Of a DNA stretch of 64,000 nucleotides, positions 20,213 to 58,784 are shown one piece after another. The notes under the pieces are model-generated. The model worked only from the letters and a program-made list of their open reading frames with translations, ran no database searches and was not told the origin of the DNA. The stretch comes from Spinacia oleracea (taxonomy: Eukaryota; Streptophyta; Magnoliopsida; Caryophyllales; Amaranthaceae): NCBI RefSeq assembly GCF_020520425.1, contig NC_079487.1, positions 112,626,141-112,690,140 on the forward strand, given 5' to 3'. Each line of letters begins with the position of its first letter. The first letter of the stretch is position 1. Both the position numbers and the translations under genes were made by a program.

Positions 20213-20697
20213 TTAAAGTAGTAATACGTATTACATAAAATTGGTGATATGGAGTATAAAATATTAACTACAAATTCAATTCCTTAAATTAATAATCAAT
20301 TTTACCAAACAATACATGTCATTAATTAACTTATTAGTTCAGTACCTTATCAGTTTCAGACTTTCAGGTGTCATTGTTTCAATTTCAGTTACCTTATCAG
20401 TTTCAGCTTCATTTTAATTAGTGTAGCCAAACAGACCCTAAAACTCCAGTCTCTTGTTGAAGTACCCAATTTGTCCTCGTACGTCATTAATTAACAAAAA
20501 AAATAAAGAGCGCTTTTTTTCGTTAAAAACACCAAATTCTTTGGCGTCTTTGCTATCCCGGTACGAGCGATTTCCTTCAATATTGCATAAAGATCCAATA
20601 ATTCCCTAAATACGTTACTTTTTAAGTTATTTCCCACCATACCGTCCACGTAAGCAAGGGAGAAAGAGAAGTAATTTTTTTTTCCGGTTCAGCATTG

Positions 20698-20826
20698 AAC
20701 CGCCATATGAGATATCGGTTTCCTTTTAAAGCAAACCGCCATCTCAGATGGCGGTTCAATGTTATAAACCGCTATCCCAGATAGCGGTTTGCATTAAAAC
20801 AAAACCGCTATCTCAGATGGCGGTTT
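20698..20826. repeat. Four 24-25-bp palindromes, left cluster
   Basis: Palindromes at about 20698-20721, 20733-20756, 20766-20790 and 20802-20826 share the half-site AAACCGCYATCTCAG and its complement. They are spaced 10-12 bases apart. Each could fold as a hairpin in DNA or RNA. Confidence 0.75.
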
Positions 20827-20907
20827 ACTTAATTGTAAATTATTTTTAATATGAATTACAGTTTAAATAGAAATATAATTTAGAAGTAACCTCTTGTGAC
20901 ATCAATT

Positions 20908-20980
20908 GTGTCTGTAGCTCAGTGGATAGAGTGGGTTGTTTCTACGTAGGAGGTCATGGGTTCGAATCCTACCTGATGTG
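20908..20980 (+). tRNA. tRNA-Arg-like sequence (anticodon position UCU), probably pseudogene
   Basis: The 73 bases contain box A TAGCTCAGTGGATAGAG and box B GGTTCGAATCC in tRNA spacing. The acceptor pairs mostly through G-U, and the anticodon stem pairs at only one of five positions, so it is unlikely to make a working tRNA. A TTTATTTCTTTTT tract follows as a possible pol III stop. Its overall sequence is close to the partner 68 bases downstream. Confidence 0.5.
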
Positions 20981-21047
20981 TTTATTTCTTTTTAACCATT
21001 TATTAATATTAATTATAAACATTTCCAAATTTAACTTATCAACATTA

Positions 21048-21120
21048 GTGTTTGTAGCTCAGTGGATAGAGCGTTTGTTTCCTAAACAGAAGGTCGTGGG
21101 TTCGACCCCTAGCTGATGCG
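21048..21120 (+). tRNA. tRNA-Arg (CCU)-like gene
   Basis: The 73 bases fold as a tRNA: D-stem GCTC/GAGC, anticodon stem TTTGT/ACAGA with loop TTCCTAA (anticodon CCU), and T arm with GGTTCGACC. Body and loops match plant nuclear tRNA-Arg(CCU) closely as I recall it. The acceptor stem is weakened by G-U pairs and the T stem has one mismatch. Ten T residues follow (pol III terminator). Its place inside an inverted-repeat element suggests a captured or dispersed copy that may or may not be active. Confidence 0.55.
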
Positions 21121-21168
21121 GTTTTTTTTTTATTTTTTTACCATTTATAAATAGTACGTGATTATAAA

Positions 21169-21658
21169 CCGCTATCTCAGATAGCGGTTTACTTAAGTCA
21201 ACCGCTACCTGAGATAGCGCTTTAGTGTCGCTTGGTTGAAAAAAAAAAAGACCGGTTTTAATGCTGACGTGGACGGTATGGTGGGAATTAAGTTAAAAAG
21301 TGGCGCATTTTGGGAATTTGACGTTCTTTACACAATATTGAAGGAAATCGCTCATCCCGGTACTCCTCTTGAACCTCACCGTTGAGTCGTTGGCTAAGGT
21401 GTCGGGCCACTGCCCGCTATCTCAGATAGCGGTTTACTTAAGTCAACCGCTACCTGAGATAGCGGTTTAGTGTCGCTTGGTTGAAAAAAAAAAAGACCGA
21501 TTTTAATGCTGACGTGGACGGTATGGTGAAAATTAAGTTAAAAAATGACGCATTTTGGGAACTTGACGTTCTTTACCCAATATAGAAGGAAATCGCTCAT
21601 CCCGGTACTCCTCTTGAACCTCACCGTTGAGTCGTTGGCTAAGGTGTCGGGCCACTGC
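21169..21658 (+). repeat. Tandem duplication, 245 bp twice
   Basis: Bases 21169-21413 and 21414-21658 are near-identical direct copies. Each contains two palindromes, the right inverted end of the Mutator-type element and about 60 bases of flanking leader ending GTCGGGCCACTGC. The duplication therefore happened after the element inserted. Only scattered single-base differences are seen. Confidence 0.9.
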
Positions 21659-37182: not shown

Positions 37183-40100
37183 ATGCATCAAACACAGAGA
37201 GAAACAGATGGTTTCGCTACTGAAATCCCATCAAAGAACTATAAGGAAGAAGAAGATGAAGATGAAGATGAAGATGAAGAAGACGATGATGTCGTTGCGG
37301 AATCACAAGTTCTTGATTCTTCATATGATTACAAAGGAAGGATTCCTCTTCGATCCTCCACTGGCTCATGGAAAGCCTCTTGCTTCATCATAGGTAATCA
37401 CCAAATCGTTCTCTTTACAAAACTCTTATATGAGTCGGACTTTCAATAATTTAGAGTATCTCATTTGTCTAAGGAGAGCTTTCTCCGTTTTTATTAGTAA
37501 ATTTACCCGTAATATGTTATTGTAAGTCCGGCTCATGTATGAATGACTGATGCAATGGTTTATCTTGAATGAACTAATGTATTATATATGTAGCAATTGA
37601 GTTTAGTGAGAGATTGAGCTACTTTGGAATAGCAACAAATATGATAACATACATGACAAAAGTGATGCACCAAGACCTGAAAACGGCGGCAAATAGTGTG
37701 AATATATGGACTGGAGTTACAACAGTGATGCCTCTTCTTGGTGGGTTTCTTGCCGATGCTTACACTGGTCGCTATTTCATGATTCTCTTCTCTGCTGTTC
37801 TCTATGTCCTGGCAAGTCTTTTTATTCCCACTCTCTCCTCCCAATTCTCTATTTTACTATTTTATTCTTCATAATTGCATATCAATTTTAGTCGAATTGA
37901 AATCGATCTCGTCCCAGATCTTGGATATCAACCCTTTATAATTACAAGAACGCTCTTCTGCTGAACGCTATAAAATATAATTTTGAGTAAACTAGCATTA
38001 CAATGGTAATGGATATTGATTTTCCTTACAAGTTTACATACAAATTTATTCTCATTGACACCATTTATGACCCGGCTCTTAAACGAGCCCTAGAAGTATA
38101 ATTAGTAATTTAACACTAAGTCTTAAGACTTGAATTTCGCTGAAATGATATATGACCCAGAGAACCTTAAGGCCAGACAAAGAAATCTGTAGAGTATATG
38201 ATGTTTAAGTTAAGAAGTCTTTAATGAGTTAACGGGTTAGAGCTAAAATTTGGTGATTTGAAGAGCTAAATTTGACGAGTTTAAAAGAGTTTTAACAAGA
38301 ATCTGAATCATTAAGTGTCAATGGAATACTGATATGACATACTGAAAAATATTTAAGACAAGACCACCCTGATAAAGAGACATGCAACTAACGCAAATGG
38401 TTACTTTAATTCCAAAAGGACTATATACATCTCAAAAATCCTATCTTGAATTTCATATGTCAATTTCCTCTCTTTTATAGTTAAACGTCACAACTAATGA
38501 AAATTTTGTGTGGGTAAAGAGAGCCTAAAAATCAACGACGCAGACGGAATTTGATTTGATTAACGTTGGTTAATTAGGGATTTGCCTAGGTTTAGCAAGT
38601 TGGAATGTCACACTTATTCAAGAATGAAATAATCATTAAAAAAAATATGAAATAATCATAGTTCCAAAATGGATTTTTTTTCAAACATCCTGTGGGCTTT
38701 GGGCCCTAATGCCGAAATTTTGCTCAAATGCCAAAAGTTGCATGCAATATTCAGACCCACATAAAAGTGAAAGAAAAGGAAATTAACGTGGGTTTGGGCC
38801 TCTTGGAGTTTGACTTTTTTTTTATAATGTTGGGCCCGTTAAGACGCGGTTGGATGGTTGAATGCAGAGAACTAGCGTCGGGACTATGATGACATCACGC
38901 TTACGAGACCGTATGCAATTTCTCAAAATGAAGGAATGATTTAGGGTATTAGTAGTGTAATACACAACAATACCTTAACCACTACTTCAATTTTATTTTT
39001 GTTAATACGACGTAGGAAATAATTATATTACTCCGTATATCTGAATTTTAGGGCTATGTGTCTCACCCCGCCCACCCCAAGAACCGCCCTTGTAGAGAAC
39101 TAGTTTAGAGCTCTGTTGAACCCTTTTACTTTATTGTTGTATGAACGGTTGTGATTGCATGAAAGCGGAAAAATAAGGGGAATTTGAGATATTTATGGTC
39201 ATAATTGTATATATTAAAGACCATAACAAGTCAAATGTTGCAGTTATTTCAAAACAGACCGAGTAAATATTTGTAGTTAGTTGATATTTGATAAGTTGTC
39301 CTTGTAGAATTCTGATTAATAAATTCTCTGTTTCTTACCTCATGACTCTATGTACATGTACAGGGCTTAGCTCTATTTACCATGACACAATATATTCCAA
39401 GCCTTAAACCCTGCAGCACAACCCCAAATTCGTGTGAACATGTTAGCAAAGTCCATGAGGTTGTCTTCTTTATAGCGGCCTACCTCGTGGCCCTTGCAAC
39501 AGGGGGTCATAAACCATGCTTGGAGAGCTTTGGGGCAGACCAATTCGATGACAACCATTCTGAAGAAAGGAAACAAAAGATGTCTTTCTTCAACTGGTGG
39601 AACATTGCACTTTGTAGTGGCCTCTTCTTTGGAGTAACTTTGATAGTCTATCTGCAAGACTATGTTAGTTGGGGCGTTGGTTTTTGTATACTAACAGTAA
39701 CTATGGGTGCCACTGTCCTGATATTTGTTCTTGGAAGGCCAGTTTACCGTTACAGAATAGCCCGTGGAAGCCCCTTAACCCCATTGTTGCGCGTCTTTGT
39801 TGCTGCTGTGGCTAAGAGAAATCTCCATTGTCCATCAGATTCTTCCTTATTGTACGAGGTTCCTAACTCGGAGAAGCTCCAAGGACGGCTTTTAGGCCAC
39901 ACTAATAGACTCAGGTAAGAAAGAATTATTCAGGGGAATTAATTCATTGTACTTGTTTTTTAGTACATATATTGATAATATTGTACTGCAGATTTCTTGA
40001 CAAAGCTGCTATAATGGAGGAAAGTGAATATAATAATGGAGCATGGAAGGAAAACCAAAGTCAATGGAGGCTAGCAACGTTAACACAAGTAGAGGAACTG

Positions 40101-40862
40101 AAGCTGATAATAACCATGATTCCCATATGGCTAACATGCTTGGTATTTGGGTTAGGCATTGCACAAGGGTCAACATTTTTCATCAAGCAAGGAGGCGAAA
40201 TGGATAGGAAAATATTCAAACACTTTGAAATCCCAGCAGCTTCTGTTTACACATTAACGTCCGTTGGGATGATTGCCTCAGTAGCCTTATACGACAAAGT
40301 CCTCCTTCCATACTTAAGGAAAGTTACAGGAAACGAAAGAGGCATTAATATCCTTACAAGAATAAGTATTGGCATGGTTATCTTAATCATATCAATGATA
40401 ATCTCGGCTTTAGTGGAGAGGAAGAGGTTAAACATGTCATTACAAGGGAAAATAATAAGTGTGTTTTGGTTAGTGCCTCAATTCTTGTTGATTGGTATTG
40501 GGGATGGGTTTTCCTTAGTTGGAATGCAAGAGTATTTCTATGAACAAGTTCCTGACTCGATGAGGAGTTTAGGGTTGGCGTTTTACCTAAGTGTTATCGG
40601 TGTTGGGAGCTTCCTTAGTACGTTGTTAATTACTATTGTGGACTGCGTTACAGGGATGAAAGGCGGTGAGAGATGGATAGGAAAGGATTTGAACCATAGC
40701 CGACTTGATTATTTTTACTGGCTGTTGGTGATCATAATTGTGTTGAATATGTGTGTTTTTGTGTTCTTGGCTAAGAATTACAGGTACAAAAATGTACACA
40801 GAAGTGTGGCTGTAGGCGATTCTAGTAATGGTGAGAATAGAGTGGAGTTGGCTAGTGTTTAA
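37183..40862 (+). CDS. NPF/PTR family proton-coupled transporter, NPF5 type, copy 1
   Basis: Members of this family are 12-helix membrane symporters moving nitrate, peptides, hormones or other metabolites with protons. Four exons (37183-37393, 37594-37811, 39364-39914 and 39992-40862) give 616 aa. The ExxER proton-coupling motif is E73-F-S-E76-R77. ESFGADQFDD and SFFNWWNIALCSG follow, then the large cytosolic loop, and GIGDGFSLVGMQEYFYEQVP in the second half. Intron 2 begins GCAAGT after YVL, a GC-AG intron; no GT donor keeps the conserved residues. The N-terminus has an acidic run of about 15 Glu/Asp (residues 22-36) lacking in copy 2. The substrate cannot be told from sequence. A related gene lies 15 kb downstream on the same strand. 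Confidence 0.88.
37981..38094. mobile_element. Partial MITE, family of 14581-14880, in NPF intron 2
   Basis: TTTTGAGTAAACTAGCATTA, AATGGATATTGA, TCATTGACACCATTTATGAC and a CCGGCTCTTAAACGAGCCC end match the right half of the element at 14581-14880. The left half is missing. Confidence 0.55.
38100..38390. mobile_element. Worn MITE related to 60749-61102
   Basis: AAGTCTTAAGACTTGAATTT, GAGCTAAATTTGACGAG, AAAGAGTTTTAACAA, ATACTGATATGACAT and AAGACAAGACCA follow the order of motifs in the element at 60749-61102. The terminal repeats are too worn to fix the edges. Confidence 0.4.
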
Positions 40863-43311: not shown

Positions 43312-43736
43312 TGTTTGGGCTCCCAATTGATTCTCAATTGGGCCACTAAGTCCAAAGCCCAATGGCTCTAAACAACAACATCAAACCTACCAATGGCTAT
43401 TCAGCCATCCATTAAGGCCCAAGGCCCAATAACAATAAGTGACCTATGGGCATTTATTATGCAAACACTATAAATAGGCCGCCAAGGCTCACACCTCAAG
43501 GTACGTCCAATTTATCGCCTTAAGACTACTCTTCTAGAGAACTTCTCTCTAGAATCCGAGCATCATTCTTACTTAGGCATCGGAGGGGCTTTCCTCGGAA
43601 ACACCCCCGAGGCTAGTGACTTTGCTCTTGTGCAGGTGAATTCGGACTCCACTCATTCAAACAAGCAAGATCTTCAACACATACAAAAGGGCCTTCATTC
43701 GAAGCCCATTATTTCCATCTTTACAACACCGGAACA
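43312..43736 (+). repeat. Left LTR of the gypsy element
   Basis: Starts TGTTTGGGCTCCC and ends CACCGGAACA. It contains a TATAAATA box and short inverted pairs such as CCCAATTGATTCTCAATTGG. Identical in length to the right LTR. Confidence 0.95.
43469..43476 (+). promoter_or_regulatory. TATA box of the gypsy LTR
   Basis: TATAAATA in the setting CACTATAAATAGGCC, about midway through the LTR, where transcription of the element should begin 25-35 bases downstream. The right LTR carries the same box. Confidence 0.7.
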
Positions 43737-43739
43737 ATT

Positions 43740-43757
43740 TGGCGCCGTCTGTGGGGA
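43740..43757 (+). other. Primer-binding site of the gypsy element
   Basis: TGGCGCCGTCTGTGGGGA lies three bases after the LTR. TGGCGCC is the complement of a tRNA 3' end, in the place where minus-strand priming occurs in this family. The exact tRNA was not determined. Confidence 0.75.
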
Positions 43758-43806
43758 AGAACACTTCAAAGCCTTTGAAAGACATCAACCACCTCTTTCC
43801 GCGAAA

Positions 43807-46800
43807 ATGGTGAATGATGTTGTTAACAATGACGACGATATGATGGTGCGGTCAGATTCAGAATCTGACCAAGAGGGGCACCCTCAATCGATGGCGAGGT
43901 CACAGCCAAGCAGAGCTACGACCGCCACAAATGCAGGACCTCCGATTCCAACTAGGGAAGAGCTCACTGCGGCCATGACCATCATGCAAAACTTCCTCTT
44001 CAATGAGAAGCAGCAAGGACTGGCAAACGACCGCAGAGAAGAGAGGAGGACCAGGCGAAGGCTGAACGAGCCACCCAGTGCGGAAGTGTCCAGACCCGAA
44101 CGAGAACTCCTTCCCTTGACAGGAACACACTTGACGTCGAGGTGGACGGAAAGCACGTGGGACACCCAAAAAAGGGCACAACAGCAACCAGATTGGTTTG
44201 CGAGACCATCGCCTACTCCAACAGCTCTCCAAAGCGAATCAACTACTCGTAACACTCGGATCCGAAGCTCGGTGCTCAGCAGGTTGAGGCCCTCGGTCCA
44301 CTCAAGGTTAAGACCTTCGATCCACACGAGACTCGGGGTAGGTGAGTCGAGCAGATCTGGCGAACGACCCGAGGTCAGTAGCCGAGAAAGAAGAAGAGAC
44401 AGGAGGCATGATCGAACCCCTAGCCCCCATCGTACGCCCGAACGTTCTAATCATAGAACCTCGGCAAACGAAGGCATCAGGGCTAGACTCGGGAAAAGAA
44501 TCATGACTCCTACGTCATCCCCTTTCTCGGACGAGCTGATTATGGAAGAAATACCGAAGGTAAGACTGCCAGCTCACCTAACCTACAGCGGAATCACAGA
44601 TCCGAGGGATCATGTCATCTCCTACGAGCAGCAAATGTTCTTGAGTCCCTACTCCGAAGCATGCTGGTGTAAATACTTCCCAACCACGCTAACCGGAGTG
44701 GCGGGAGAGTGGTTTAGATCGCTGCCGAAGGGATCGATCAAGAGCTGGAAAAAGCTGAAAAAGAGATTCTGCACACAGTTCGTGAGCAACAATCGCCCCG
44801 AGCGAACCACAGCAGAACTGACCTCAATCCAACAAGAAAGAGACGAAAGTCTGAGAGAATTCATGGCCAGATTCATGAAGGAATCAACAAACATACCAAA
44901 CTTGCAGCCAGACGTGGCCATCTTCGCCTTGAAGCACGCGCTCCAGGAAGGGAAGTTCCGTGACGAACTCTCAATGAAGAACCCCTCCAGAATAGCTGAC
45001 GTGCTCCAAATGGCTGACGCGTTCATCAGAACCGAGGAGTTCAACAAGGCCGCTGCAAGGCTGAAAGGATCGTCGGATCCGAGAGACACAAAGAATACCC
45101 AGAGCAAGCCCGAGGGTAGCTCAAGGAAGGGGAAAGAGAAAGTAGGAGCTAGAGAGATGAGCCCGAAGAAAGACGGGAGAAGGGGTGAACTTCAACCCAA
45201 GTACACCAACTACACTCCACTAGCTCTGCCCCGAAAGGAGATATTCAGCCTCAACAGAAATGACGAAAAGTGGAAACTACCTGGGAAGCTCAAGTCCAAC
45301 CCAGCTCGGAGAAACAAGAACAAATGGTGCGAGTTCCATGATGACTTCGGTCACCATACCGAAGAATGCAACTCGCTGAAAGACAACATTGAGGACCTCG
45401 TTCGCCGAGGCTACCTGAAACAGTACTTGTTAGACCGAAGGGAGGAAAAAGAAAAGGCCGCAAGCGGCAAACAACACGAGCAACCCCAGAAAAGGGTCTA
45501 CGAAGCAACAGGGCACAAGAAAAATGACATCCTAGTGGTGTTCGGGGGACAGAAGTCTGGCCAGGCCAGCAAAAAACACCTAAGAGCCCTCTCCCATCGG
45601 GTCAACTTCAGCGCGGTGGGAGACAACCAGCCACACCCCCCGAACATGACCTTCACTGCTGATGATTGCTTCGGAGTCCAGTACAAACATGATGATCCTC
45701 TGGTCATCTCCATGGACCTCAATAACCACAACGTACATCGAGTATTAGTCGACGGAGGAAGTGCCGTCAATATCATCTTCAGAAACTGCTTCGAGCAGCT
45801 GATCCTCGAAGAGCCAGAGGAAGCACTGACGAAAGTCAGTTATCCTCTGATCGGATTCAACGGATCCGCAGCTATCCCTCGAGGAAAGATCACCCTGCCA
45901 GTCACAGTGGGCGAAGGCCAGGCAGCAAAAACCCTTCGGGACGAATTTTTGGTGATGGACTGCGACTCCGTATACAACGTAATCATGGGGAGAACCATGA
46001 TTCACAAGATGCAAGCAGTCCCCTCCACATACCACCAGCTGATGATATACGTCTCGGATGCAGGATTCGCCGAACGAATCAGGGGTGATCAAGAAGTGGC
46101 GAGAAGAACCTGCCACACTGCTGTCCGAAAGCCCAAACTAGAGGACGGCCCCGAGGAAGAAAAAGGAGCTAAGGGAGAGGAAAGCGAGGCAAAAAGAAGA
46201 AGAGCAAGCACGAGCAGCTTGTCTCCCGCAGAAGTTGATGCTCGCCCCGAAACCCTATCTCCCGAACCAGATCAAGAAATGGAGGATATCTTCCTCGAAG
46301 ATAATTCAGACAGGAGCGTCCGAATAGGCAAGGGCCTAAGCTCGGGGCTCCGAATCGATTTGATCCGACTACTCAGGGATCACAAAGACATCTTCGCATG
46401 GTCAGCAGCAGATATGCCAGGGATAAATCCGAAGCTGATTTGTCACAAGCTGGATGTCAACGCTGAAGCTCGGCCAATCAAGCAAAAAAAGAGAAATTAC
46501 TCCTCGGAGAAAAACAAAGCCATCGCCGAGGAGGTTAAAAAGTTGCAAGAGGCCGGATTCATCGAACCATGCATGTATCCGAAGTGGCTGGCCAACGTGG
46601 TGATGGTCAAGAAAGCGAACGGCTCATGGCGAATGTGCGTAGATTTCACAGATCTGAACCGAGCCTGCCCCAAAGACTGCTATCCCCTGCCAAGGATAGA
46701 TCAACTGGTTGACTCCACCAGCGGCCATGCACTGCTCAGCTTCATGGATGCCTTTTCAGGCTACCACCAAGTATTCATGCACCCCGATGACAGGGCAAAG

Positions 46801-49557
46801 ACAGCGTTCATCACAAGCGCAGGAGTGTTCAACTACAAAATGATGCCTTTCGGCTTGAAAAATGCCGGAGCCACCTACCAGAGGTTAGTTGACCACGTCT
46901 TCGCCGACCAGAAAGGGAGGAACGTGGAGGTCTACGTGGATGACTCCATCGTAAAAAGCATCAAGGAGGAAGACCATGTCAAAGACTTGGCAGAGACCTT
47001 CGGAAATCTGAGGAAATACAGCATGAAGCTGAACCCAAAAAAATGCGTCTTCGGGGTGAAGTCAGGGAAATTCCTCGGATTCATGGTGAGCGAAAGAGGA
47101 ATTGATGCGAACCCAGACAAAGTCCAAGCGGCATTGGATTTACCCGAGCCGAAGACCAAGAGAGATGTGCAGAGGCTAACCGGCAGGTTAGCCGCACTAA
47201 CAAGGTTCATATCAAAAGCCTCGGACAAGGGAGCCCCCTTCTTCAAGGCACTGAAACCAAAGAGCCTCCCCGGAGGAGAAGCAGAACCAGTCAAGAAAAA
47301 GGGGGTCCCGAGGAAAGTGGATCCCGAACTGATATGGGAACAGGAGCAAAAAGAAGCTTTTCAGCAACTCAGAGCCCACCTAGCTCAACTGCCGACACTG
47401 GCCAGACCAAAGGAGGGGGAAACCCTGTACCTATATGTCGCAGTTAGCCCTGGAACCGTCAGCGCAGTGCTTCTTCGGGAAGAAGAAAAGAAGCAACAGC
47501 CAATCTACTTCACCAGCCGAACACTTACAGGAGCCGAAACTCGGTACCCACTCATCGAGAAAGTCGCATATGCAGTAGTGGTAGCTGCACGAAAACTGAG
47601 GCCATACTTCGACTCCCACCAGATCACAGTGCTAACTGACCAACCGCTCGAAAAAGTACTCGACAAAATAGAGAGGTCAGGAAGATTGGCTGCCTGGGCC
47701 TTCGAACTATCAGAGTTCGGCATCAAATATCAGCCGAGGACAGCAATCAAAGCACAAGCATTGGCAGACTTCTTGGCCGAGTGCTCATACCAGGAAATGT
47801 TGGATGATACGAAAAGCACTTGGGAGGTCTTCACTGACGGATCTTCCACAGTAAACGGCTCAGGGGCAGGAGTTGTGCTAATCCCCCCGACGGGGAAAAG
47901 CATAGAATATGCATTGAAGTTCGGCTTCAAAGCAACCAACAACGAGGCCGAATACGAGGCCGCAATCGCAGGGATAGAGCTTTGTTTATCCCTGGAGGCC
48001 GAACATGTTCGCCTCAAAACTGATTCCCAGCTTGTAGCCAACCAGATCCGAGGGGAGTATGAGGCCAAATGGCCCAGCATGACAGCCTATTTAGCAAAGA
48101 TTAAATCCTTAACGTCAAAGTTAAGATCCTTTGAAGTCATCCTCATTCCCCGAGGACAGAACGCGCAAGCAGACGCACTGTCAAAACTCGCAAGCTCGAC
48201 ACTCATCGACCTAAACAGGTCGGTCCACGTGGAAGTTCACCAGGAGAGAAGCATCGACTTGCTACCCACCACAGTATGCAGCTTACGTACCGAACCGAGC
48301 TGGATGGACGCAGTAGTTGCATACAAAGAAAGGGGAGAACTTCCTGAAGATAAGCTGCAAGCGAGAAAACTGAAAAGATTCAACAGATGGTTCATCATCA
48401 GCGCCGAAGGAGAGCTCATGAGGAAATCATTCTCTGCTCCGCTGCTAAAATGTGTGGGTCCAACAGACGCTGACTACATCCTAAGGGAAATCCACCTCGG
48501 GATATGCGGAAACCACATTGGAGGTAGGACATTAGCACATAAAGCCCTTCGGGCTGGGTACTGGTGGCCCACTATGGTTTCCGAGGCAAAGCAGATGGCA
48601 AGGAAATGCGAGAAATGCCAAAAGTTCGCACCAGCCATCCATCAACCAGCTCAAGCCCTACAATCAACACTGTATCCCTTACCATTCGCACAGTGGGGGT
48701 TAGACATCATTGGTCCCTTCCCCTCAGCGACGAACCAGAAGAAGTGGTTGATTGTAGGAGTCGACTATTTTAGCAAATGGATCGAAGCCGAAGCTGTCTC
48801 CTCCATCACCGAACCTCAGGTCCGCAAGTTCATATGGCAGAACATCATCACAAGGTTCGGCATACCAAGACTGATGGTCTTCGACCACGGGAAACAGTTC
48901 GACAACACCCCGTTGCAAAAGTGGTGCAAACAGTTCGGCATACACCTAGCATACTCGGCAGTCTGTCACCCACAAAGCAACGGGCAAGCCGAAGCTGCTA
49001 ACAAACTCATCCTCAACGCACTCAAGAAAAGAGTCGAGGATGACAAAAACAAATGGTTAGAAGAGCTACCCGGAACGCTATGGTCCCTTCGGACCACTGA
49101 AAAAGAAGCTACCGGACAAACACCGTTCCACCTTGTATACGGATCCGAAGCTGTAATTCCTGTGGAAATCGGAACAGAAAGCCTGAGGATCCAGGCATAC
49201 AACAGGTATGATGGGCTCCAAGGAGAAAGCAACAACCAGCTTCTATCCGAAGCTCTCGATCTACTGGATGAAGCTCGGAACGATGCAAGGACACTCAACG
49301 CAGCCTATTTGCAGAGGGTCAACAAGCATTACAACCGAAGAGTCAACGCCAGACCCCTAAAAGTCGGTGATCTAGTACTCAGAAACGCCGCCTCGGTTCA
49401 GAAAGGACGGATCCATGGCAAACTCTCAGCCACTTGGGAAGGACCATACATCATCCATTCCGAAAAAAGGCCAGGCACGTATATGCTGAAACAGTTAGAT
49501 GGAACAATTCTGAAGAACCATTGGAATACCGATGTTCTCAAGAAATATTTTGTATGA
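43807..49557 (+). CDS. Gypsy gag-pol polyprotein
   Basis: One frame carries all retroelement parts. The start is placed at MVNDVVNNDDD because the frame's upstream methionine lies in the LTR. In order: gag domain (LTYSGITDPRDHV to ADAFIRTEEF, about 44577-45040), a Cys/His motif CEFHDDFGHHTEEC, protease with VLVDGGSAVNII (about 45740), reverse transcriptase with VYVDDS (about 46934), its RNase H, a second archaeal-type RNase H with FTDGSSTVNGSGAG and TNNEAEYEAA (about 47830-47990), and integrase with a zinc-binding H/C region and DDE core (48490-49010). The second RNase H points to the Tat lineage. It functions in copying and inserting the element, not for the host. Confidence 0.95.
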   Translation: MVNDVVNNDDDMMVRSDSESDQEGHPQSMARSQPSRATTATNAGPPIPTREELTAAMTIMQNFLFNEKQQGLANDRREERRTRRRLNEPPSAEVSRPERELLPLTGTHLTSRWTESTWDTQKRAQQQPDWFARPSPTPTALQSESTTRNTRIRSSVLSRLRPSVHSRLRPSIHTRLGVGESSRSGERPEVSSRERRRDRRHDRTPSPHRTPERSNHRTSANEGIRARLGKRIMTPTSSPFSDELIMEEIPKVRLPAHLTYSGITDPRDHVISYEQQMFLSPYSEACWCKYFPTTLTGVAGEWFRSLPKGSIKSWKKLKKRFCTQFVSNNRPERTTAELTSIQQERDESLREFMARFMKESTNIPNLQPDVAIFALKHALQEGKFRDELSMKNPSRIADVLQMADAFIRTEEFNKAAARLKGSSDPRDTKNTQSKPEGSSRKGKEKVGAREMSPKKDGRRGELQPKYTNYTPLALPRKEIFSLNRNDEKWKLPGKLKSNPARRNKNKWCEFHDDFGHHTEECNSLKDNIEDLVRRGYLKQYLLDRREEKEKAASGKQHEQPQKRVYEATGHKKNDILVVFGGQKSGQASKKHLRALSHRVNFSAVGDNQPHPPNMTFTADDCFGVQYKHDDPLVISMDLNNHNVHRVLVDGGSAVNIIFRNCFEQLILEEPEEALTKVSYPLIGFNGSAAIPRGKITLPVTVGEGQAAKTLRDEFLVMDCDSVYNVIMGRTMIHKMQAVPSTYHQLMIYVSDAGFAERIRGDQEVARRTCHTAVRKPKLEDGPEEEKGAKGEESEAKRRRASTSSLSPAEVDARPETLSPEPDQEMEDIFLEDNSDRSVRIGKGLSSGLRIDLIRLLRDHKDIFAWSAADMPGINPKLICHKLDVNAEARPIKQKKRNYSSEKNKAIAEEVKKLQEAGFIEPCMYPKWLANVVMVKKANGSWRMCVDFTDLNRACPKDCYPLPRIDQLVDSTSGHALLSFMDAFSGYHQVFMHPDDRAKTAFITSAGVFNYKMMPFGLKNAGATYQRLVDHVFADQKGRNVEVYVDDSIVKSIKEEDHVKDLAETFGNLRKYSMKLNPKKCVFGVKSGKFLGFMVSERGIDANPDKVQAALDLPEPKTKRDVQRLTGRLAALTRFISKASDKGAPFFKALKPKSLPGGEAEPVKKKGVPRKVDPELIWEQEQKEAFQQLRAHLAQLPTLARPKEGETLYLYVAVSPGTVSAVLLREEEKKQQPIYFTSRTLTGAETRYPLIEKVAYAVVVAARKLRPYFDSHQITVLTDQPLEKVLDKIERSGRLAAWAFELSEFGIKYQPRTAIKAQALADFLAECSYQEMLDDTKSTWEVFTDGSSTVNGSGAGVVLIPPTGKSIEYALKFGFKATNNEAEYEAAIAGIELCLSLEAEHVRLKTDSQLVANQIRGEYEAKWPSMTAYLAKIKSLTSKLRSFEVILIPRGQNAQADALSKLASSTLIDLNRSVHVEVHQERSIDLLPTTVCSLRTEPSWMDAVVAYKERGELPEDKLQARKLKRFNRWFIISAEGELMRKSFSAPLLKCVGPTDADYILREIHLGICGNHIGGRTLAHKALRAGYWWPTMVSEAKQMARKCEKCQKFAPAIHQPAQALQSTLYPLPFAQWGLDIIGPFPSATNQKKWLIVGVDYFSKWIEAEAVSSITEPQVRKFIWQNIITRFGIPRLMVFDHGKQFDNTPLQKWCKQFGIHLAYSAVCHPQSNGQAEAANKLILNALKKRVEDDKNKWLEELPGTLWSLRTTEKEATGQTPFHLVYGSEAVIPVEIGTESLRIQAYNRYDGLQGESNNQLLSEALDLLDEARNDARTLNAAYLQRVNKHYNRRVNARPLKVGDLVLRNAASVQKGRIHGKLSATWEGPYIIHSEKRPGTYMLKQLDGTILKNHWNTDVLKKYFV

Positions 49558-55276: not shown

Positions 55277-55662
55277 ATTGTTTTGTAAGAAAAAAGAAAA
55301 AAGAAAAATATTAGAGAACCCTCCTGCGTTTTAATACTCCGTAAAAAATACTCCATAGGAATATAGGATACAACTTATAAGATGCTGCTCCTATATGGCT
55401 AATTGGCTATAAAGATATAATATACTATGTACTTGGTGTAACGTATAATATGGATGATTGGTATAGTACTTACCTATAAGTGAATTATTTATTTATTTAG
55501 CAGCTGCCACTGCCACTGCCAGCTGAGAGGCCGGGGGGTTACTATATAGTACTCCGTACACCGTATTGCGTATTAATTGGGCAATGGTTTACTTATTCAA
55601 TTCACTGCCTGCTACAAGTATCAAATAAAACAAGCATTTCACATTTTGTTTACTTTTTGAAA
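55277..55662. other. Upstream region of the second NPF gene
   Basis: Non-coding; expected promoter and leader. Contains two CTCCGTA phrases and a TGCCACTGCCACTGCCAG tract. Confidence 0.35.
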
Positions 55663-58600
55663 ATGGAGGGTAGAGAAGATATACATGATGAAAATGACAC
55701 GAAACTATTACATCATGTTCATGACTCATCTTTGGACTACAAAGGAAAGCTTCCTCTTCGATCTTCAACTGGCTCATGGAAAGCATCCTTCTTCATCATA
55801 GGTAACACATTTCAACTTTCATTTATATATCATTAAGGATATGACATGAATTTACAAGTCGGGAAAAAGAAAATCAATAAAATCCTAATTTTAGTTAAAT
55901 ATATATATGCAGCAATAGAGTTCAGTGAGAGGCTGAGTTACTTTGGAATAGCAACCAACATGATAACATACATGACCAAAGTGATGCATCAGGACCTTGA
56001 AACAGCGGCCAATAGCGTAAATATATGGGCCGGGGTAGCCACGGTGATGCCTTTGTTTGGTGGGTTTCTTGCAGATGCATATACCGGCCGCTACTTTATG
56101 ATTCTTTTCTCTGCCATACTTTATGCAATGGCAAGACTTCTCTCCTTTACTCTCTATTATTACTCTTTTTTTTAGGGGGTGAAAGTAATTTTACTTTATT
56201 TGCTGTGACTACAACTTAAGGTTGCCTTTTGGGAAAATGATCATTAGTGGACAAGGTTATTAGCAGACAATTTTTTATTGATTAGGGTCGATATGGAATC
56301 AGAATATTAGCCCAATAATTTATAAATAAAAATAGATAGCTTAAACATGTACTATGATCGAATATATTAGTATTTACATGGACCATCTATTAGCTCTCTC
56401 CCATTCTGTTGCTAATTTGTTAGTCTGCCTACTATTGACCTTTGACCCGCATGAACCAGACAGGCTACAACCCTTTAATAAATGATCCTCTAATAACCGA
56501 ACCTGTTAATGACCGCACCACACTAACCATGGCCCGGCACACCCTATAACCAGGTCTAGTTGCGAAAATACCTTTCAAAAGTCATTTATTAAAAAATATT
56601 TTTGGTGAAATTTACTTATTCGTAGTTGTAATACAATTTTGTAAGGTACGGAATAGTACCTTATTCTAATTTTTCGGCCACAAAGGTTTACTCTCGGCGT
56701 TGACTTTGGGTTTTTCTTCTTTTGAATTCTTTTGTCAAGCAATTCCTTCCTACATCCCTCCCCATGTGTTTGTTGTTGTGTTCTTTTGTTGTGCATTGAG
56801 CTTTGATTTGGACACCACTGACTCGGAATTTGGACGTCATTGCTCACGAATGAGTAAATTAAAGAGTTGTTTGGTAATCACCATTAATTTTGTATTTGGT
56901 AATATATTCAGGGTTTAGGTGTTTACACAATGTCCCAATACATCCCAAGTCTTAAACCTTGTGGTGCAACCTCGAGTACATGCGAACATGTTAGCAAGGT
57001 CCACGAGTTGGTCTACTTTTTAGCAGCATACCTAGTGGCCTTAGCAACCGGGGGTTACAAACCATGCTTGGAGAGCTTTGGGGCAGACCAATTCGACGAC
57101 AATCACTCGGAAGAAAGGAAGCAAAAGATGTCATTCTTCAATTGGTGGAATATAGCCCTTTGTAGTGGCCTTTTCACTGGGGTGACTTTGATTGTGTATG
57201 TACAGGACTACGTTAGTTGGGGACTCGGGTTTTTAATCCTAGCCATAACTATGGTCGCTAGTGTCTTGGTATTTGTTCTTGGTAGGCCATTTTATCGCTA
57301 CAAGACCGCTCTTGGAAGCCCATTGACCCCTTTGTTGCAAGTCTTGGTTGCTACTTTCACCAAACGAAAACTAGTTTGTCCATCAAATCCATCCTTGTTG
57401 TATGAGCCTCCCGTTTCAGGGAAGCTCCAAAGCCGACGTTTGGGTCATACAAACAGACTCAGGTAAACGTTACTAGTCAATTGGTCATAGCCCATAATGT
57501 TTTTTTACTAGTATATATGTTGTTGTGGGGGATTGAACACGGGTTCTCCCTACCAAGTTCAGCCCCAATCACCACTAAACCTACAAGCAATTGGTATATA
57601 TGTACGTGGATGTAATAAAATTTGGATATAGTAAGTGGGAGAGTGTAAAAATATGGGTGGATGTAAGAAAATAAAATGAAGAAAATAAGAGAAAGTGAAC
57701 GGAAAGTGATAAATGTTGGGGGATAAGAAAGAAAAATTCCATGTCTAAAATTAGAAGAAAACACAATATAAATAGCATTGTGAAATTGACTAAAATGGAA
57801 AATGTAAATATCATTTTGAAACGGAGTCAGTAGTTAACAGTTTAATGTTTCATAGGCTCATACTACGTAGATCACAGTTTAATTAATTTGTTTGTATAAA
57901 TGCATTGCAGATTTCTTGACAAAGCTGCTATAATCGAAAATCATCAAAGTAATGAAGTAGACATGAAGAAACAAAATCCATGGAGGCTAGCAAGCGTGAC
58001 ACAAGTAGAGGAATTGAAGCTGATAATAAACATGGCTCCCATATGGCTAACTTCCTTGGTATTCGGCATAGGCGTTGCCCAAGGGACCACATTCTTTGTT
58101 AAGCAAGGAAGTGCAATGGATAGGAAAATTTCCAAACACTTTGAAATCCCAGCAGCTTCAATGGCAGTCTTAATAGCCCTAGGTATGATTACTACAATTG
58201 CATTTTACGACAAAGTCCTTTTACCATACTTAAGGAGAGTCACAGGAAACGAGAGAGGTATTAACATCCTTACAAGAATTGGTATTGGTATGGCCATTTT
58301 AATTATATCAATGTTGTTCTCGGCTTTGGTAGAAAGAGAAAGATTAAAGGCGGCGTTACAAGGGAAAATAATGAGTGTATGTTGGCTAATACCACAGTTC
58401 TTGATCCTTGGTATAGGGGATGGTTTTTCCCTAGTAGGAATGCAAGAATACTTCTATGACCAAGTTCCTGATTCCATGAGGAGTTTAGGAATGGCGTTTT
58501 ACCTTAGTGTTATTGGCATTGGAAGTTTCATGACAACATTTTTAATCATGGTTGTGAATCAAGTGACAAAGATGCATGGAGGAAAGAAATGGATAGGAAA

Positions 58601-58784
58601 GGATTTGAACCACAGTCGTCTTGATTATTTTTATTGGCTCTTGATGCTCATTTTTGTATTGAATATGTGTGTTTTTGTGTTGTTGGCTAAGAATTATAGG
58701 TACAAAAGTGTTCAAGCAAGTGTGGTTGTGGTAGATAATTCTTGTGACGCCGGTGAGAAGAAAATGGATTTGGGTGGTGTTTAA
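55663..58784 (+). CDS. NPF/PTR family proton-coupled transporter, NPF5 type, copy 2
   Basis: Tandem relative of the gene at 37183. Exons 55663-55801, 55913-56130, 56912-57462 and 57911-58784 give 593 aa. Exons 2 and 3 are exactly as long as in copy 1 (218 and 551 bases), and most residues are the same. ExxER is E49-F-S-E52-R53; ESFGADQFDD and SFFNWWNIALCSG are intact. Intron 2 again begins with GC (ATG, then GCAAGA). The start MEGREDIHDEN is the only in-frame ATG before the conserved SSLDYKGKLPLRSSTGSWKA. The N-terminus is shorter and lacks the acidic run. Intron 3 holds a SINE head and part of a Stowaway. Looks functional; substrate unknown. Confidence 0.9.
57519..57598 (-). mobile_element. 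SINE head fragment in NPF copy 2 intron 3
   Basis: Matches the box A/box B half of the SINE at 4327-4474 (complement of GGGGGATTGAACACGGGTTC and CCAAGTTCAGCCCCAATCAC), in the same orientation. The 3' part and A-tail are missing. Confidence 0.65.
57600..57832. mobile_element. Partial Stowaway MITE in NPF copy 2 intron 3
   Basis: The right end ATTTTGAAACGGAGTCAGTA is a typical Stowaway terminus. The expected left terminus is not found and may have been lost where the SINE fragment lies. Confidence 0.45.

Follow-up and report, generated by a model that had tools for sequence, protein, structure and literature searches.

Pack-MULEs are non-autonomous DNA transposons with long inverted ends and 8–11-bp target duplications that have captured host gene sequence and raised its copy number. 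Their cargo, in the usual meaning of the term, consists of pieces of protein-coding genes, and DNA transposons in general are known to shuffle such pieces. As far as the main text of an account of Pack-MULEs and Pack-TYPE elements goes, the word "tRNA" is absent (PMC8903248). Animal Pack-TIRs have been explained by gap filling and template switching with microhomology at the joints, FB4 being a repetitive gene-carrying example (PMC8277862). In Arabidopsis, tRNA-Cys clusters overlap annotated Helitrons and capture has been put forward as a possibility; Helitron programs gave no reliable prediction over these genes (PMC10701932). MULEs with multiple tandem inverted ends have also been described (PMC3310237).

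Here we analyze a 64,000-nucleotide stretch of the Spinacia oleracea genome (contig NC_079487.1, positions 112,626,141–112,690,140; hereafter the window). Our reading is that it holds a non-autonomous Mutator-like element, of the Pack-MULE type, that carries two host tRNA-Arg(CCU) genes in tandem as its cargo, and we put the probability of this reading at roughly 0.8. An earlier note, made from the sequence alone, knew of no described element of such composition; we likewise found none in the open-licence literature, and one may be described elsewhere. The matches listed in that literature included no case of a MULE or other DNA transposon carrying or capturing tRNA genes and, within the spinach-genome literature, nothing on the element. 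Short words of the palindromes, searched as text, gave listed matches that were unrelated by title.

Architecture of the element

The inverted ends of about 92 bases, the 10-bp direct repeat outside both of them and the six or more palindromes read in the earlier note are all present (Table 1). Arms of 84% complementarity extend over 20558–20656 and 21262–21360, and overrun the true ends of the element into the direct repeat because CCGG is self-complementary. The direct repeat is exact and abuts the element on both sides. A fuzzy scan of the whole window located six palindromes in the element, two in an adjoining tandem duplication and two unrelated ones elsewhere. The left array (20693–20830) folds at −49.7 kcal/mol, compared with a mean of −12.3 for 200 shuffles, none of which was equally low. 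Matches of the palindromes to microRNA families fell far under the curated scores, and we read them as generic hairpin matches. The two tRNA-like sequences proposed earlier both exist and lie in tandem, but of the two only the second still qualifies as a tRNA: it alone is called by ARAGORN on the element, as tRNA-Arg (cct), and the first scores under the curated RF00005 cut-off of 29 bits.

Table 1. Coordinates of the element and of its adjoining duplication, in window positions.
Feature	Position	Strand	Basis
Left target-site duplication ATCCCGGTAC	20555–20564	.	Identical to 21354–21363, flush with element end
Non-autonomous Mutator-type element, 789 bp	20565–21353	+	Inverted ends; 39 further full-length copies, of which 38 have perfect target duplications
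Left terminal inverted repeat, 92 bp	20565–20656	+	84% complementary to right end; terminal 21 bases 732 times in genome
Array of four palindromes (two long hairpins)	20693–20830	+	Fuzzy palindrome scan; fold energy
Cargo left flank	20831–20907	+	Match to host tRNA locus in last 9 bases only
First tRNA-Arg-like sequence, anticodon arm degenerate	20908–20980	+	RF00005 24.9 bits; no ARAGORN call
Spacer, homologous to spacer of host tRNA pair	20981–21047	+	Alignment against shuffles, using spacers of older copies
Second tRNA-Arg (CCU)-like sequence	21048–21120	+	ARAGORN; RF00005 43.6 bits; 7 differences from host gene
Two palindromes right of cargo	21165–21224	+	Inverted-repeat and fuzzy palindrome scans
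Right terminal inverted repeat	21262–21353	-	Complementarity to left end
Right target-site duplication ATCCCGGTAC	21354–21363	.	Identical to left copy
Tandem duplicate of 21169–21413 (palindromes, right end, host flank)	21414–21658	+	96% identity

The 245-bp tandem duplication repeats the right end of the element together with its flank, so that the target sequence occurs a third time at 21599–21608. Since host flank and target sequence accompany this second right end, we take it to be a local duplication that followed insertion and lies outside the mobile unit. Its junction (within 21169–21658) falls at a palindrome, as if a hairpin had promoted the duplication. In another copy, L029 (C5:99365600–99366991), a right-end-like fragment of 81% identity (C5:99365817–99366004) abuts the full copy, perhaps as a nested or tandem-ended element.

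Elsewhere in the window, open frames at 39346–40862 and 55501–58784 (57900–58784 was searched) are mutually similar and NRT1/PTR transporter-like, and are probably tandem paralogues. One exon of a nitrate-transporter-like gene in the window has 86% identity to its closest match and, among named sequences, 77% to Beta vulgaris and 71% to Bienertia. A 2027-aa open frame at 43474–49557 looks by eye like a retrotransposon polyprotein.

A mobile family in the spinach genome

A search of the genome (894 Mb in 242 contigs, of which six, each of 115–189 Mb, are involved) with the element gave 740 candidates. Forty were scored, the window copy among them, and all 40 are near full length with 94–100% identity. 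Perfect target duplications of 8–11 bp flank 38 of the 39 other copies when an end shift of up to 4 bases is allowed; the exception, L041, is damaged at its right end. The terminal 21 bases match the genome 732 times at no more than one mismatch (360 and 372 on the two strands) versus none for the reversed-pattern control, and the left edge of the cargo matches 152 times at no more than two mismatches (79 and 73), again with a control of zero. The number of ends and the target duplications rule out chance inverted repeats, and the outcome that the earlier note had named as fatal, ends that are not repeated elsewhere, did not materialize. Judged by its hundreds of ends and by the differing target duplications at differing sites, the family has clearly moved many times. 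No match to the end sequence was seen in viral contigs.

The other copies do contain the tRNA pair that the earlier note had proposed to look for. Both tRNA-like stretches are present in 40/40 rows of the alignment of scored matches, the window copy included. We also selected elements by their exact ends alone, taking the 23 facing pairs no more than 17 kb apart on C1 and early C2 among the matches listed: tRNA sequence is present in 16 and absent from 7. Nineteen of these pairs (L078–L096) comprise 12 elements with tRNA-like sequence and the 7 without; the remaining four (the window copy, L022, L033 and a copy of 16 kb that has nested insertions) all have it. With fixed ends, a perfect 9-bp target duplication is found in 16 of the 19, the exceptions being L082, L084 and L090. 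L095 and L096 have their target duplication in common and look like one local duplication. These two are tRNA-less, 388–389 bp in length and 10 kb apart (C2:25.163 Mb and 25.173 Mb), the picture of a local segmental duplication and not of two insertions. A second sample consisted of 18 C1 ends that lacked an exact partner, taken in list order and not previously collected. The second end was recognizable in 12 (3 with tRNA and 9 without), and for 6 none was seen within the retrieved stretch. Several carriers are incomplete: only one tRNA is matched in L089, L090 and L099, the spacer and the 5' part of the second tRNA are gone from L091, and L078 is without the 3' part of that tRNA.

Comparison of the tRNA-less interiors (n = 13) revealed at least three core types in the family, counting the tRNA cargo. 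One type (L080, L082, L083, L084, L105 and L110) keeps the family ends and palindromes around a different core. In L080-type elements this core starts directly after GGTTTGCTT and stops directly before TATAAACCGC, the same boundaries as the cargo has in the carrier L066. A second tRNA-less type, with a third core, comprises L092, L101, L104, L108, L113 and L114, and L095 has no core.

A host tRNA pair as the likely source of the cargo

When the genome was searched for the tRNA-Arg(CCU) core as a pattern with at most two mismatches, 69 sites were returned, and none for the control. Among them is a locus at C2:79.92 Mb where two intact tRNA-Arg(CCU) genes of identical sequence stand 138 bp apart ahead of a third, partial unit; it has no inverted ends, and no parts of the family lie nearby. 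The tRNAs of the element are 140 bp apart. A tRNA pair without inverted ends was the second finding that, according to the earlier note, would undo the element reading. Such a pair does exist, but the reading stands, as an intact host locus that holds only tRNA genes and resembles a donor supports capture.

We compared the two loci using spacers of older element copies and 2000 dinucleotide shuffles. Alignment of the host spacer scores 50 against the element spacer (shuffle maximum 35) and 43 against the downstream flank of the element (shuffle maximum 29); the two downstream flanks align with a score of 32 (P = 0.002). Upstream of the cargo tRNAs 9 bases match the host locus (P = 0.053), and the left 68 bp of the cargo have no match, so that the C2:79.92 Mb locus may be merely a relative of the true donor. 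The alignments thus point to descent of the cargo from this locus or from a close relative of it. At the right cargo joint host and element have TATAAA in common, which would be compatible with template switching.

Decay of the element tRNAs

Of the 69 core sites, 58 belong to the element family, membership being assigned by BLAST of parts (ends plus palindromes, or spacers) and not by site-by-site target duplications. The other 11 are bare tRNA sequences without the family spacers, the host pair accounting for two of them. We scored tRNAs in two scans of 20 loci each, drawn from a larger set of sites. In the first, the best host genes reached 67.0–67.1 bits, and three of the 13 tRNA genes at 63 bits or above proved to be element-borne: L051 (67.0 bits, identical to the host gene), L056 (64.4) and L066 (63.6). 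The target duplication is 9 bp and perfect around the L056 element, and 10 bp with a single mismatch around that of L066; the right end of L051 is gone. The second scan gave at most 55.2 bits for an element tRNA (L120). The window copies, at 24.9 and 43.6 bits, are far from the 67.0–67.1 bits of a host-level cloverleaf. Both tRNAs are readable in 59 copies, where 0–14 positions of the second and 7–20 of the first depart from the host gene. Of five anticodon-stem pairs, the first tRNA keeps a mean of 1.6 (68 ungapped copies) and the second 4.3 (71 copies). On these scores and differences, most of the examined element tRNAs have decayed, and a few match the host gene exactly or almost exactly. 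The suggestion that the element carries and may spread tRNA genes is thus upheld for the tRNA sequence, which has spread, and less so for the genes, most copies being decayed.

Run with bacterial settings, ARAGORN labels the decayed tRNAs as tRNA-Asn or tRNA-Pyl in several of the copies L022–L046. Automated annotation would scatter false tRNA types over decayed copies of the element, and its counts of tRNA-Arg(CCU) genes may be inflated, with 58/69 core sites borne by a transposon.

An alternative holds that the element carries working tRNA genes under selection, whose Pol III transcription benefits the host or the element. The tRNAs of L051, L056 and L066 lie 0–1 base from the host gene at 63.6–67.0 bits, the A and B boxes are both kept in 38/59 first and 45/59 second tRNAs, and an initial test on 59 copies gave P = 0.003–0.005 for conservation of the A box in the first tRNA. 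At 78 copies, however, this signal is gone (P = 0.11 for the first tRNA and 0.14 for the second), and the B box gives no signal in either tRNA at 59 or at 78 copies; in these tests, collecting copies by the tRNA pattern biases the sample for the second tRNA. We therefore do not claim selection on the promoter boxes. The poorly kept anticodon stem of the first tRNA also argues against the alternative, as does the variability of the tRNA stretches, which is higher and not lower than that of the element flanks. We consider selection for working tRNAs improbable.

In matched context, the tRNA sites also change faster than sites elsewhere in the element. Over the 59 copies, steps per site were 2.96 versus 0.50 at CG, 2.95 versus 0.96 at CHG and 0.73 versus 0.30 at AT, with no significant difference at CHH (1.08 versus 0.94). 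We treat this as a lead only, as possible constraint on the ends and palindromes and exchange between the two tRNAs are confounders. Changes from the host gene are commonest at CG and CHG sites, as would be expected of methylated, silenced DNA. The tRNA genes thus appear to be passengers, with no constraint detected on them.

Class of the element

MULEs are defined by long terminal inverted repeats and by 8–11-bp, mostly 9-bp, target duplications. The family has recurrent 92-bp ends of 84% complementarity, and target duplications in 38/39 copies, of 9 bp in 16/19 of the end-selected sample. The label of the earlier note, Mutator-type, rests on these ends and duplications, since no transposase was found with them. 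No autonomous partner was found; one candidate, an end pair 16 kb apart, is a copy that carries tRNA sequence and contains nested insertions. As expected of a Pack-MULE, the family holds host gene sequence with a relative outside the family, namely the tRNA-Arg(CCU) pair with its spacer match; the recognized cargo is tRNA genes and not protein-coding sequence. Gene-carrying MULE behavior is accordingly better supported than MULE membership, for which the transposase is missing.

The missing transposase would also suit a foldback-type or other inverted-repeat transposon. Foldback elements have internal palindrome arrays, and those of the spinach element are reminiscent of them; but its 92-bp ends are not themselves repeat arrays and its mostly 9-bp target duplications fit MULEs, which makes this assignment very improbable. 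Plant SINEs have tRNA-like heads and the element sequences are tRNA-like and multicopy, but retroposition of one or two tRNA-derived SINEs into the element is hardly credible and we reject it: in place of a head, body and tail with their own duplications and independent copies, the sequences match two genuine tRNA genes that lie in tandem in the host, including spacer and downstream flank, no SINE body or poly-A tail is visible by eye, and the 69-site census contains no cargo copies outside elements with target duplications of their own, its 11 free sites being bare and without the cargo spacers.

Discussion

We propose the following course for the Mutator-like element with captured tRNA genes. 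The ancestor would have consisted of ends and palindromes only, the tRNA-less form probably coming first. A break between its two hairpin arrays may have been filled by template switching from the host tRNA pair, in the manner reported for animal Pack-TIRs (PMC8277862). A MULE transposase acting in trans would then have amplified the resulting tRNA-carrying product, whose copies were presumably silenced and entered the decay that we now see.

A bolder version treats the palindrome-flanked middle as an exchangeable cargo bay, which captured the tRNA pair and from which L051, L056 and L066 became working additions to the tRNA-Arg(CCU) set. We advance it tentatively and think it rather unlikely as a whole. 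If it were true, a transposon would have distributed Pol III tRNA genes over the genome, some of them working. A single genome offers a complete tRNA-pair cargo, a donor-like locus, tRNA-less siblings and copies at varied stages of decay. The family thus makes two questions testable, whether transposons create new plant tRNA genes and whether hairpin arrays promote cargo capture.

The closest described systems each resemble the spinach family in part. The second right end in the window recalls MULEs with tandem inverted ends, but it is a local duplication made after insertion and includes flank (PMC3310237). Like the Arabidopsis tRNA-Cys clusters, the family ties plant tRNA genes to transposon annotation; those clusters are local and tandem, whereas the spinach copies are dispersed and have target duplications (PMC10701932). 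With Pack-TIRs it has in common an inverted-repeat element filled with host DNA, although Pack-TIRs are animal elements and "tRNA" is absent from the main text that describes them (PMC8277862). The spinach family and Pack-MULEs are alike in being non-autonomous, in their long inverted ends, and in host gene sequence that was captured and multiplied. They differ in what is carried: the spinach cargo consists of two complete non-coding tRNA genes instead of protein-coding pieces. What appears to be new here is an element of the Pack-MULE kind with a complete tRNA gene pair as its cargo.
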